In this document: positions 5,571 to 34,783 of the stretch, piece by piece
Layout of the letters: each line of letters starts with the position of its first letter
Numbering within the stretch: position 1 is the stretch's first letter
IMG/VR virus record: IMGVR_UViG_3300035204_001080
Span: 1 to 34,783 of that record
Source: a virus
DNA: 34,783 nt
Direction: 5' to 3' (one strand)
Notes under the pieces: generated by a model
What the model saw: only the letters and a program-made list of their open reading frames with translations
Told to the model about the DNA's origin: nothing
Database searches by the model: none
Position numbers and translations under genes: made by a program

Positions 5571-6953
5571 CTACTCTCCGCGTTCTTCCAAGACGTTCTC
5601 CATGTAACCCGCGGCTCTCTTGGCTTGCTCAAGCTGTGATGTTTCCTCCGCTTCTTGTCGACGGAGCTCAGCCATCCTGCCCATAAGCACATCGCGGGTT
5701 CGCCTCTGCTCCGGTCGCCGTGCGCTCATCTCGTGTGCACCAAGAGCAGTCTCCAGTTTACGTAGCTGGGGGCGTATCTTCTGCATCTCGACTCTGCGCG
5801 CCTCACGCCTATCTTCCAACACATCAATGCCTCGCGCCTCTTCACCTTCGCCACGCTCGTATAGACGGGACAAAGCATCTCTTGTCGCCCCCGCGCGAGT
5901 GAGCCCCTCAATAACGCCCGGCTCTGCTGGATGGCGTTCCGTACGGGCAAGCTCAGCTTGGTACTGCACGCCTTCTGGCGGCTTAGGTGCAAAGAGATAG
6001 CCCGCCGGCGCGCGCTTCTCTTCTTGTGCCATAGCAGCCAATGCGGGCACAAATGCACTTGGGTGAAGTGGTGATGCGGATCGAAGTGGATCCAAGCGAT
6101 GGCGTTGATACCCCTCTCCCACAGGCGCGGGTGCTCGTGGCGCTACCTCTGCGTCTGGTCGCTTAGCCCCAGCGGCCTCAAGTGCCGCTCGATTCTCTTC
6201 TATCGCTACTGATAGCTCACGCAGCTTCTCGCGACGCTCATTCGTACCTGCGATGAGAGACGCCTGGTCTGCTGAGAGGGTTTCACCTTCTCGGGCTGCA
6301 ATGCGCGCTTCCTCAGCTCTCACATTTGCTTCGAGAAGTTCCCCTTGATCATCAAGTAGATCGACGCGGTCAGTGAGCAAATCAACCTGCCGATCTGCAA
6401 GCGTCTGCTTACCAGAAGGCGCAACGTCAACATCAGCCGCTGTAACAGCTTCACCGGCAGCTGCGATATCACCACTTTCTTGTGCGGATTGAATCGCTTT
6501 TAGAACCGGGGGCCGGGCACTCTTCAGGGCAGTATTGAACTCTCTCTCAGCGTTCTGTGCCCAGTCTGGGTAAGCCAGGTCGGGTCGCTTATGCTCCCGA
6601 ACAATCTTATCGTACGTCCGCGCATAGCCGAGGTTGGCCATGTGCCAAGCGACATTGGCGTACTCACGCTGGAGACTTCCTTCCGGCGCAGCTTCATAGT
6701 CTTGCGCGGCCTTGTCCAACGCTTCCTGGGCCTTCGTTTGAAGCGCCCTTAGCAGATCTTCGGCTTTGGTCTCTGGTCGCGGAGTTTCCTGGTTGTCATC
6801 GTCGTCATCGTCGTCATCATCAGCAGCAACGTCAGCAGCAACGTCCGCGCGCGTGTCGTCGTCGTCAACATCAACACTTGAGACACGACGGGCTGTTTTC
6901 CCAACAGATCCGCCGGCTATGATCGCCGATACCCCTTTTGCAAAGCCGGCCAT
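5571..6953 (-). CDS. Acidic, coiled-coil virion-associated protein (unknown function)
   Basis: The protein has 460 residues. The N-terminus (MAGFAKGVSAIIAGG) is small and mildly hydrophobic. It is followed by a strongly acidic tract around residues 25-55 with nine consecutive Asp, then long Ala/Glu/Arg-rich helical stretches typical of coiled coils (about 60-260 and 350-455). No catalytic motif is seen. Start and upstream stop share a base (TAATG at 6951-6955), so translation is coupled to the 813-aa gene, and the giant polyvalent gene follows after 6 bp. Position inside the internal-protein block suggests a minor virion or ejected protein; this is inference from neighbours only. Confidence 0.7.
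   Translation of the reverse strand: MAGFAKGVSAIIAGGSVGKTARRVSSVDVDDDDTRADVAADVAADDDDDDDDDNQETPRPETKAEDLLRALQTKAQEALDKAAQDYEAAPEGSLQREYANVAWHMANLGYARTYDKIVREHKRPDLAYPDWAQNAEREFNTALKSARPPVLKAIQSAQESGDIAAAGEAVTAADVDVAPSGKQTLADRQVDLLTDRVDLLDDQGELLEANVRAEEARIAAREGETLSADQASLIAGTNERREKLRELSVAIEENRAALEAAGAKRPDAEVAPRAPAPVGEGYQRHRLDPLRSASPLHPSAFVPALAAMAQEEKRAPAGYLFAPKPPEGVQYQAELARTERHPAEPGVIEGLTRAGATRDALSRLYERGEGEEARGIDVLEDRREARRVEMQKIRPQLRKLETALGAHEMSARRPEQRRTRDVLMGRMAELRRQEAEETSQLEQAKRAAGYMENVLEERGE
6795..6845. repeat. Triplet microsatellite plus 12-bp tandem duplication inside the 460-aa gene
   Basis: Nine GTC/ATC triplets (6795-6821) encode nine consecutive Asp on the minus strand. They are followed by two identical 12-bp copies of AGCAGCAACGTC (6822-6833 and 6834-6845) encoding the repeated DVAA. 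Such in-frame triplet arrays are prone to slippage, so length variation between relatives would be expected. Confidence 0.85.
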
Positions 6954-29664: not shown

Positions 29665-30192
29665 CTATCCCCAACCAGCGGGGATCAAATGACCAGGACC
29701 ATACGGCGTGTCCTGGACCAACACGCCCTCGCCCCCAGGACCCACTCCCGAGAACACAGGCACGTCATGCAAGTCCGAGTCAGGCGACCAATAAAACGCA
29801 ATCACCTCATCACCCGACTTGCCCCACCAACGCTCCCAACCATGGCCAGCGTAGTACTCGTGCGCCTCACGCTGACTCTCTGGAAACCGCTCGCCCTTCG
29901 ACCAACGACTCCAACCCTCAGGCGGCTTTATAAACCCAGCTGAGTCCCGCTCAATCGGGGCATCTGGCGGCGACTCGACGGGCTTGGCAGCTGACTCAGA
30001 CTTGGACACCGGCGGAGCGGCCGAGCCCTCTAAGACTGATAATCCCTTCAACAAGGCCATCCGAGCTACCAAACGACGATCAACGCGTACGCCAAACTCC
30101 AACGCCGATGGACTGCTCGCGACCTCACCCACCAACGCATCCAGCCGCTCAATAATCGCCGACTCCAGCGTCAGACTTAGCTTCATTCCCAT
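29665..30192 (-). CDS. RHH-like N-terminal domain fused to an SMI1/Trp-rich-type C-terminal segment (175 aa, function unknown)
   Basis: The first 50 residues (KLSLTLESAIIERLDALVGE, then RLVARMALLKGLSVL) have the strand-helix-helix pattern of ribbon-helix-helix proteins. A Ser/Pro/Ala linker (about 58-82) follows. The C-terminal part is Trp/Tyr-rich (PEGWSRWSKGERFPES, YYAGHGWERWWGKSGDEVI, FYWSPDSDLHDVPVF), and I do not assign its fold; the SMI1 comparison is only a loose impression. GGAGAG lies 4 nt before ATG 30192. It is the first leftward gene after the control region. Confidence 0.6.
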   Translation of the reverse strand: MGMKLSLTLESAIIERLDALVGEVASSPSALEFGVRVDRRLVARMALLKGLSVLEGSAAPPVSKSESAAKPVESPPDAPIERDSAGFIKPPEGWSRWSKGERFPESQREAHEYYAGHGWERWWGKSGDEVIAFYWSPDSDLHDVPVFSGVGPGGEGVLVQDTPYGPGHLIPAGWG

Positions 30193-30218
30193 GAGACTCT
30201 CCGGGGCTCGTTGACACT

Positions 30219-30247
30219 ACGGTAATACCGCATAGTTCGAATGTCAA
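30219..30247 (-). promoter_or_regulatory. Leftward promoter with central palindrome
   Basis: The minus strand reads TTGACA (30247-30242), a 17-bp spacer and TACCGT (30224-30219), with RNA start predicted near 30212, about 20 nt before the ATG at 30192. The palindrome CGGTAATACCG (30220-30230) covers the -10. A TTGACA also lies on the plus strand (30211-30216), so the element is flanked by inverted TTGACA/TGTCAA. Confidence 0.65.
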
Positions 30248-30549
30248 GGGGCCGAAATGTCTTGGTGTCAAGTGGGCTGTGTTGGTTGGGGTTGTCGGTG
30301 TGGTATAGGGTTCGGGGAGTGGTTTCGGTCGGGGAAGGGCCCCCCGGCTATGGGTCCCCACTGGCGCTCGGCGGGGTGTACCCCCCTCCCCTACCCCCCT
30401 GGTCCGGCCGGCGGCCCGGCGCTGCCGGCGTGGTCCGGCCGGCCGGGTAGATTGGGATCGGACGCCGGCCGGGTGGCGGGTGTCACCGCCGCGCGGTGGG
30501 GGGCGGATCGGTCGGATGCGGGCCCGGCGGGATCGGCCGTCTGGTTTAT
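30248..30549. other. GC-rich gene-free stretch with TGGTCCGGCCGG repeat
   Basis: No frame here has a ribosome site or protein-like composition. TGGTCCGGCCGG occurs twice (30400-30411 and 30431-30442, 31 bp apart), and GTCCGGCCGGCGG (30402-30414) recurs at 33887-33899. C- and G-runs are frequent (for example 30381-30399). Confidence 0.65.
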
Positions 30550-30583
30550 CTAACGGCCGTTAGGCTGAGATCAGCGAATTCGC
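30550..30583. promoter_or_regulatory. Chain of three adjoining palindromes
   Basis: CTAACGGCCGTTAG (30550-30563, perfect 14 bp) abuts GCTGA-GA-TCAGC (30564-30575), which overlaps GCGAATTCGC (30574-30583, perfect 10 bp). No gene lies here. Such dense dyads are typical of operator or origin sites. Confidence 0.6.
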
Positions 30584-30659
30584 CCGTACTGCGTTCAAAC
30601 CGATCCTGAGTGTAACGGTGTACCTAAGGCATACCGACGCGGTGTAGGCCCCTTAGCGG

Positions 30660-30730
30660 GCGATTAAACCCTATGTTGACTTGTCAAGAGCCAAAATAAA
30701 AGTCAATGATTCTGCATAGTTACGAGGACG
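30660..30730. other. AT-rich island in the control region
   Basis: This stretch is clearly richer in A/T than its surroundings (for example CCAAAATAAAAGTCAATGAT) and contains TTGAC-TT-GTCAA (30676-30687). An AT-rich segment bordered by palindromes may be an unwinding element or a UP-element-type promoter region. Confidence 0.45.
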
Positions 30731-30766
30731 GCACCCCTCGAATCGGTCCATTTCGCCGCCCTAAGT

Positions 30767-30780
30767 ACCTGAAATCAGGT
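30767..30780. promoter_or_regulatory. 14-bp inverted repeat ACCTGA-AA-TCAGGT
   Basis: The two 6-bp arms are perfect. The core CTGA-RA-TCAG is shared with 30565-30574, about 200 bp away, suggesting two copies of one operator. Confidence 0.55.
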
Positions 30781-30788
30781 GGCAGGTC

Positions 30789-30816
30789 TTGACGTGTCAG
30801 ACACGTCTCCTATCCC
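30789..30816 (+). promoter_or_regulatory. Possible promoter overlapped by a 17-bp palindrome
   Basis: GACGTGTC (30791-30798) and GACACGTC (30800-30807) form a perfect palindrome around one base. It overlaps TTGACG (30789-30794), and TATCCC (30811-30816) lies 16 bp downstream of that -35. A third palindrome TCACGTGA follows at 30826-30833. Repressor control is likely if the promoter is active. Confidence 0.45.
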
Positions 30817-30911
30817 CGCGCGCGATCACGTGAGGGCGTGGCTACTCAGCCTGACCCGCACCGTCACGCGGTCGGTAGGAACTGAATCGCAGACTCATTT
30901 GCACTATCTAC

Positions 30912-30940
30912 TTGACGGGGGGTTTCCGCTGCGGTAGGCT
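30912..30940 (+). promoter_or_regulatory. Rightward promoter for the DUF932 operon
   Basis: TTGACG (30912-30917), a 17-bp spacer and TAGGCT (30935-30940) lie 49 bp before the ATG. The spacer (GGGGTT-x-CCGCTG) is nearly the same as in the promoter at 33986-34014. Confidence 0.7.
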
Positions 30941-30988
30941 CTGCCTGAGCACTGAAGCTCACCGGGCCACGAGCCCACTGGAACGACA

Positions 30989-33606: not shown

Positions 33607-33629
33607 ACCCCTCCCCTGCACCCCTCCCC

Positions 33630-33655
33630 AGGGCGCGCCTTATGGCGCGCCCTTT
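33630..33655 (+). terminator. Rho-independent terminator with 10-bp perfect stem
   Basis: AGGGCGCGCC (33630-33639) and GGCGCGCCCT (33644-33653) pair perfectly around TTAT, followed by TT C. The U-tract is short, but the stem is strong. It ends the operon begun at 30912. Confidence 0.75.
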
Positions 33656-33815
33656 CACGTTGGTGACAAGGCTCAACGTTGGTGGCGGGGCGCTGGTGGC
33701 AAGGCGCGGCGTCGCGCTACCCCGATCCTCAGCGGCACTATCAGCGTTGGTGGTAGCTGCTGTGAAGGTAGGTGGTGCTATCAGCGTCGCGCCAGGGCGC
33801 GGCGTTGGTGGCGGG
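33656..33815. repeat. Noncoding GTTGGTGGC repeat region
   Basis: GTTGGTGGC-type units start at 33659, 33678, 33746 and 33804, with CTATCAGCGT repeated at 33738 and 33778. GTTGGTGGCGGGGCG (33678-33692) is identical to 25344-25358 in the scaffold gene. The ORFs here are not convincing genes. Confidence 0.65.
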
Positions 33816-33822
33816 TATCGGC

Positions 33823-33918
33823 GTCCGGCGTGTGTCCGGCTGAGGGTCCGGCGTGGGTCCGGCGTGGTCCGGCAGTCCGGCAGTGTGTCCGGCCGGCGGG
33901 GTCCGGCGGTAGTCCGGC
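33823..33918. repeat. Array of nine GTCCGGC heptamers
   Basis: GTCCGGC starts at 33823, 33834, 33846, 33857, 33867, 33875, 33887, 33901 and 33912. Intervals are 11, 12, 11, 10, 8, 12, 14 and 11 bp, close to one helical turn, so the copies tend to lie on one face of DNA. The array lies in a gene-free gap upstream of a promoter. Confidence 0.85.
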
Positions 33919-33938
33919 GCGCGGCCCAGGCGGCAAGC

Positions 33939-33962
33939 TCACGGGGCGAATCACGGGGCGAG
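33939..33962. repeat. 12-bp tandem duplication before the promoter
   Basis: TCACGGGGCGAA (33939-33950) is followed immediately by TCACGGGGCGAG (33951-33962), ending 23 bp before the -35 of the promoter at 33986. Confidence 0.75.
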
Positions 33963-33985
33963 TCAGTTTTTCTTGCGGGCTGGGT

Positions 33986-34014
33986 TTGACATGGGGTTAC
34001 CGCTGTGCTATACC
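33986..34014 (+). promoter_or_regulatory. Promoter of the DUF7227-like gene
   Basis: TTGACA (33986-33991), a 17-bp spacer and TATACC (34009-34014) lie 52 bp before the ATG. GGGGTT and CCGCTG in the spacer match the promoter at 30912. The RNA start is expected near 34021. Confidence 0.72.
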
Positions 34015-34066
34015 TATAGTACCCCGGTGGATTGACCGTCGGCGGAATCGACAAAAGGTAACGACA

Positions 34067-34783
34067 ATGAACAAGAACGGACTGGTACTTTGGGAAGGCC
34101 CATCAGCTATTAACGGCGAGCCTATCGTGGTGATTGCTACGGGGCTCACGCGCAAGAGCTCCAACGGGAAGATTGGCGCGGACACGGTCCAGGTTTGGTA
34201 TTTGCCCCGTGACGTCGCGCCCAACGTGGCCGTGAAGACTGGCGACGACGAGGCTGTGTGTGGCGACTGTATCCACCGTCCAAGCAAGGGCGGTAGCTGC
34301 TACGTCGTGACGTACCAGGCTGCGCGTGCCATCTGGCAAGCCTATCAGGACGGTAGCTATGCAAGCTGGAACGGCAACACGCTGCCCTTCATCGGGCGCG
34401 TGGTTCGCTTCGGTGCTTGGGGCGACCCGGCATCCGTGCCCGCCGGAACGCTCGCGGCTATCCGTGACGTAGCTCGCCGCCACATGGCCTACACCCACCA
34501 ATGGAAGCGCGAGAGTGCGAGTCACCTGCGAGATTGGTGCATGGCTTCAGTAGACTCCATGCCTGACTACCTCCGAGCTCGCTCTGCAGGCTGGCGCACG
34601 TTCCGCGTGCGCGACGCTGGCGAAGAGCTCCAGGCGCGCGAGCGGATGTGCCCCGCTGCCGATGAGTCGCCCGTGTCCGCTGCCATGGACTGCGGCAAGT
34701 GCAGCGGTTGTGATGGACTGGCCCGTGGAGCCAAGCGCCCGAGCTACGCTATCGTGGTGCACGGCTCACGCGCGGGACGATTC
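34067..34783 (+). CDS. DUF7227-like cysteine-rich phage protein (partial, continues past window)
   Basis: The frame starts at ATG 34067, after AAGGTAACGACA, and is open for 239 codons to the window end. The product has CGDCIHRP with a following Cys (65, 68, 78), an RVVRFGAWGDPASVP segment (about 124-138), a DWCMASVDSMPDYLRARSAG block (Cys158), Cys195 and a CxxCxxC cluster (209, 212, 215). This order of motifs is that of a conserved phage family of unknown function (DUF7227 in my recollection). The last visible residues (IVVHGSRAGRF) resemble the usual family end, so little may be missing. The cysteines could hold zinc or an Fe-S cluster. Confidence 0.75.
   Translation, partial: MNKNGLVLWEGPSAINGEPIVVIATGLTRKSSNGKIGADTVQVWYLPRDVAPNVAVKTGDDEAVCGDCIHRPSKGGSCYVVTYQAARAIWQAYQDGSYASWNGNTLPFIGRVVRFGAWGDPASVPAGTLAAIRDVARRHMAYTHQWKRESASHLRDWCMASVDSMPDYLRARSAGWRTFRVRDAGEELQARERMCPAADESPVSAAMDCGKCSGCDGLARGAKRPSYAIVVHGSRAGRF

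Follow-up and report, generated by a model that had tools for sequence, protein, structure and literature searches.

The window analysed here, 34,783 nucleotides in length, is a whole virus record (IMG/VR IMGVR_UViG_3300035204_001080) and yet a fragment, with genes running off both ends. The terminase, portal and major head protein were recognised in it. The head protein matches 77 viral contigs at 71–87% identity, some of them 65–74 kb long, and the phage belongs to an uncultured podovirus-like group with genomes of ~65–74 kb. The phage collection that was searched gave no match to the head protein and no closer relatives at the DNA level, and no counterpart of the group was detected there by capsid protein or control-region DNA. 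Nineteen relatives were retrieved for comparison. Most of them share a layout in which a leftward gene, F4, is followed by a divergent gap and then by a rightward early region, and relatives encode a DUF927 primase/helicase, DNA polymerase A, a helicase, recombination proteins and a putative small terminase subunit.

The second control region of the window is a gene-free gap that contains the array described below (Table 1). This gap is G-rich on the + strand, the rest of which is mostly C-rich. Near its start is an inverted repeat that is terminator-like but weak, because its T tail is only TTT, and that is not among the calls of the terminator scan. A search of viral contigs with the small protein encoded before the array gave no closer relative. 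A looser repeat cluster directly precedes the array; three of its four GTTGGTG copies are GTTGGTGG, its GNTGGTGG is Chi-like, and copies similar to GTTGGTGG also occur in the divergent gap of one relative (G001). The array ends 67 bp before the −35 box of the early rightward promoter. The original prediction had placed the array between a terminator and a promoter, of which the promoter stands and the terminator is reduced to the weak hairpin.

Table 1. Features of the two control regions of the window, and the box-containing gaps of related phages (record handles given where coordinates are not those of the window).
Feature	Coordinates	Strand	Remarks
Gene F4	29665–30192	-	Conserved leftward gene next to the control region; small, helical N-terminus as read from the sequence
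Divergent control gap	30187–30988		
Two TGGTCCGGCCGG copies	30400–30442	+	31 bp apart; in the divergent gap
DUF932 gene promoter	30912–30940	+	Operator-like TTCCGCTGCGGTA at 30924
DUF932 gene	30989–31936		
Gene-free gap with array	33607–34066		460 bp; empty in the codon-usage gene call
Perfect inverted repeat GGGCGCGCC-TTAT-GGCGCGCCC	33631–33652	+	9-bp arms; TTT tail
Looser repeat cluster	33659–33811	+	GTTGGTG ×4 and one GCTGGTGG; all on one strand
GTCCGGC array	33823–33918	+	Starts 33823, 33834, 33846, 33857, 33867, 33875, 33887, 33901, 33912
Two direct CACGGGGCGA copies	33940–33961	+	12 bp apart; between array and promoter
Sigma-70-like promoter TTGACA-N17-TATACC	33986–34014	+	21/29 identical to the DUF932 promoter
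Palindromic operator-like site TACCGCTGTGCTA	33998–34010		One mismatch to TACCNCNGNGGTA; overlaps promoter spacer/−10
ORF with ribosome site	34067–34783	+	Cut by window end (717 bp); matches C-terminal half of phrog_2554
GTAACAC/GTGTTAC gap, L226 (G002)	6340–6730		
GTAACAC/GTGTTAC gap, L278	7158–7548	-	
GTAACAC/GTGTTAC gap, L273	11040–11425		
GTAACAC/GTGTTAC gap, L015	2521–2911		
GTAACAC/GTGTTAC gap, L276	1290–1690		
GTAACAC/GTGTTAC gap, L016	1630–2030		

An exact search of the window found nine perfect copies of the heptamer GTCCGGC in the array, all in one orientation and on the same strand as the genes that follow. Their start-to-start spacings of 11, 12, 11, 10, 8, 12, 14 and 11 bp (mean 11.1) leave spacers of 1–7 bp, so the heptads are gapped throughout, and conservation of the repeat ends sharply at 7 bp. 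The array is 78% G+C. The array is thus confirmed as originally described, with exact copies in one orientation 8–14 bp apart and about 11 bp on average, and the related copies predicted for the divergent gap are also present, namely two GTCCGGC within TGGTCCGGCCGG at 30400–30411 and 30431–30442. Equal density elsewhere, which would have counted against a special role, was not found: the 34.8-kb window holds 14 copies in total (13 of them on the + strand), nine in this 96-bp cluster and five outside it. Furthermore, the 411-bp gap around the array was dinucleotide-shuffled 5000 times, and the commonest 7-mer of these shuffles had five copies, compared with the nine observed.

Several other readings of the gap were tried and rejected. 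An RNA element found no match in Rfam, and the array as RNA folds less well than shuffled versions of it (z = +2.3), which counts against an RNA role. As DNA, the whole gap forms secondary structure no better than shuffles, and the four-run G3 pattern of a G-quadruplex was not found on its + strand. Finally, a coding repeat is disfavored by the array spacings, few of which are multiples of three, and by a gene caller that leaves the gap empty.

We then asked how the array is distributed. Two or more closely spaced GTCCGGC were found in only two of 28 other records, and an unbiased search for clustered 6–8-mers outside coding phase returned three records: the window, G023 and G022. In G023, eight GTCCGG and seven GGCGGACC (39575–39773) lie directly before a similar promoter of the homologous downstream gene, with 19 of 22 GWCCGG on that gene's strand. 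G022 has twelve GGACCGGC upstream of the homologous gene, mostly at 8 bp, and a third relative, L296, has six GTCCGGC (1680–1769) in a gap downstream of the homologue. All three have clusters of GWCCGGC close to the homologous gene, for the most part on the same strand, and the spacing in them is free (7–21 bp or perfect 8-bp tandems). Five further relatives (G026, G021, L286, L289 and L293) have the homologous gene and not this array. The original prediction had named absence from relatives, or free spacing in them, as grounds against it, and this was found in part, because most relatives lack the array.

The shared position of these clusters may be partly coincidental, since the downstream gene of the window has closer homologues (47% each) in Caulobacter phage S2B and Mycobacterium phage jiawei; those of G022 and G023 are at 37–38%. 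Some unrelated phages with a homologue of this gene carry arrays of quite different units, such as GCCTGTG at 8 bp and CGCCGAC at 7 bp. Across 61 homologues, arrays lie upstream in 15 and downstream in seven (Wilcoxon P 0.047), a weak enrichment, and a general association of arrays with the gene family was set aside on this account. Short-site arrays in the 5′ region of the phrog_2554 homologue were seen in the unrelated L377, L349, L354, L363, L311, L350 and L319, including GGGCACC(ATCA) at 11 bp in L311. A scan of the collection for three spaced heptamers gave at least 119 stretches, many of them in-frame coding repeats, and among the matches listed none is evidently from this phage group. 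Likewise, among the literature matches listed for the heptamer GTCCGGC, none is related to this site.

The spacing had been described as near-helical, placing most copies on the same face of the DNA. It varies less than under random placement (SD P = 0.008), and six of the nine copies deviate from the mean face by no more than 60 degrees, with two others off by ~100 degrees or more. Phase coherence at 10.5 bp per turn is nevertheless not significant (R = 0.53; P = 0.08 versus random placement in the span and P = 0.32 given spacings of 8–14 bp), and at the same pitch phasing is absent from the clusters of relatives (R = 0.28 in G023 and 0.20 in G022). The statement that most copies share a face is loosely true, yet it is a weak one and gives no evidence of phasing. 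A helically phased cooperative operator for a phage repressor would fit the mean spacing of 11 bp and the early promoter nearby. Given the coherence values, and an array that is not conserved at this promoter in relatives, we regard such an operator as highly improbable.

The early promoters, moreover, bear a different conserved palindrome. One-mismatch versions of TACCNCNGNGGTA overlap the spacer and −10 element of both rightward promoters of the window (30924–30936 and 33998–34010), and TACCNCNGNGGTA itself is found again immediately upstream of F4 in most relatives, as well as within the DUF932 promoter in G001. The array is therefore probably not the main repressor site, and the repressor-operator reading first offered for it does not hold; TACCNCNGNGGTA is the better operator candidate for this phage group. 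Its ligand is possibly F4, which from a reading of its sequence is possibly a DNA-binding regulator; a Foldseek search of the PDB with the F4 fold gave no match.

Heptamer arrays that are conserved sites do exist in this phage group, as six sister phages (G002, G003, G006, G008, G009 and G014) keep ~ten GTAACAC/GTGTTAC boxes in a comparable early gap. Most of these boxes are invariant and their spacing is fixed, and the sequence between them varies; they make a strong candidate for a control or origin array. Like the GTCCGGC array, these are heptamer boxes in a gap of ~380–460 bp, between rightward early genes in most cases. They differ from it in occurring in both orientations, in their conserved spacing, in the heptamer itself and in the flanking genes.

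The main rival to a binding-site reading of the GTCCGGC array is neutral growth of a short repeat, in which slippage and segmental duplication in an unconstrained gap would have produced a GC-rich minisatellite that binds nothing in particular. The array holds an internal duplication of ~52 bp (TRF period 55, 1.9 copies), relatives carry perfect 8-bp tandems, of which that of G022 looks like recent slippage, and most relatives lack the array altogether. The different units near the same gene in unrelated phages, with their weak upstream enrichment, also fit this account. On the other side, the nine cores are perfect while their spacers differ in sequence and length. Between the ~52-bp duplicated halves, the heptamers are identical in 28 of 28 columns and the spacers in 8 of 16 (Fisher P = 7e-5), a contrast to be read knowing that the core was picked because it is conserved and that repeat homogenisation could mimic selection. 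Heptamers that stay unchanged while spacers diverge favor selection on the motif. Neutral growth also does little to explain why the same motif recurs, mostly on the same strand, in G023 and L296. We consider neutral growth a serious possibility, although on balance an improbable one.

The evidence fits an array of cis-acting sites better: no heptamer carries a mismatch, the spacers have diverged, and some relatives have the motif too. This much of the iteron array or cooperative operator first proposed is retained, whereas its specific readings as origin, partition site or repressor operator are not upheld. From sequence comparison, we give roughly an even chance to the array being a fast-evolving cluster of direct repeats, a putative protein-binding site upstream of the early promoter whose ligand is probably encoded by the phage. 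Several protomers of such a DNA-binding protein would load next to one another on the GTCCGGC heptamers, and the nucleoprotein patch so formed in the early control gap may help to activate the early cassette or to assemble replication proteins. Because both the sequence and the spacing of the sites change fast between related phages, contacts between protomers would need to be flexible and could not be locked to the helical repeat. Switching the promoter on and off would probably fall to the separate palindromic operator that overlaps the −10 element.

If the array does bind a protein, it marks a control center of this phage group and illustrates how such short arrays of binding sites can differ in sequence and spacing from one related phage to another. 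The early-gap heptamer arrays of the group might even be sites of a nucleoprotein complex whose heptamer (GTCCGGC, GGACCGGC, GTAACAC) and spacing switch between lineages, a co-evolving pair of protein and site that sets replicon or regulatory identity in the manner of immunity or incompatibility groups, although we find this doubtful. If the array is neutral, it warns against taking every dense set of short repeats in a GC-rich phage gap for an origin or operator.

Among known systems, the iteron origins of RK2, P1 and R6K and the lambda ori resemble the array in having direct repeats of one orientation in a control region, and the nine copies here adjoin an early promoter, as would be expected if a phage initiator bound them as iterons. 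The unrelated phage L377 lends this some further appeal, as the 5′ region of the homologous gene there contains four DnaA-box-like GTTATCCACAG, two of which lie 11 bp from each other. However, described plasmid iterons are 17–22 bp (PMC4980987) and the unit here is 7 bp. No AT-rich unwinding element adjoins the array, as the minimum of the gap is 47.5% G+C per 40 bp, and no DnaA box occurs in the gap within one mismatch. In agreement with the original prediction, no initiator linked to the array was recognised in the window, which as a fragment includes just 717 bp of the next gene, and the primase/helicase and DNA polymerase of relatives are located elsewhere. The GC-skew check proposed earlier, run on the fragment and on long relatives, gave no minimum near the control region and a maximum there in G023 and G026, values that are confounded by gene strand. 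An origin at the array thus appears unlikely, and that part of the prediction is not upheld. The lowest G+C of any 40 bp in the window (30%; 30672–30711) is found in the divergent gap, which also has two GTCCGGC and is a better place to search for an origin than the array gap.

A second comparison is with partition sites. The parS of mycobacteriophage RedRock, from extrachromosomal mycobacteriophage prophages, consists of eight 8-bp repeats (PMC7157519), and that of pSM19035 consists of 7–10 non-palindromic 7-bp repeats that overlap promoters and are bound by the ribbon-helix-helix protein Omega (PMC9499535). In number and length the units of the array are very similar to both, being short direct repeats, and an integrase search of 13 records from the group gave no match, as might be expected of a phage-plasmid carrying a parS-like centromere. 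Unlike RedRock, however, the group has no match to ParA (PF13614) or ParB_N (PF02195) in 13 records (the window and 12 relatives), although a ParB of the ribbon-helix-helix type would escape PF02195. Omega heptads directly adjoin one another and lose activity once gaps are introduced, whereas the heptamers here are separated by variable spacers and are unrelated in sequence; most relatives, furthermore, are without the array. The partition function once suggested for it is accordingly abandoned as very unlikely.

Lastly, the stoperators of Cluster A mycobacteriophages are asymmetric intergenic sites that point in the direction of transcription (PMC9283540), and the array resembles them in this respect, as all nine of its copies lie on the + strand. 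Stoperators are 13-mers scattered genome-wide, whereas here nine of 14 copies are gathered in one cluster upstream of a promoter.
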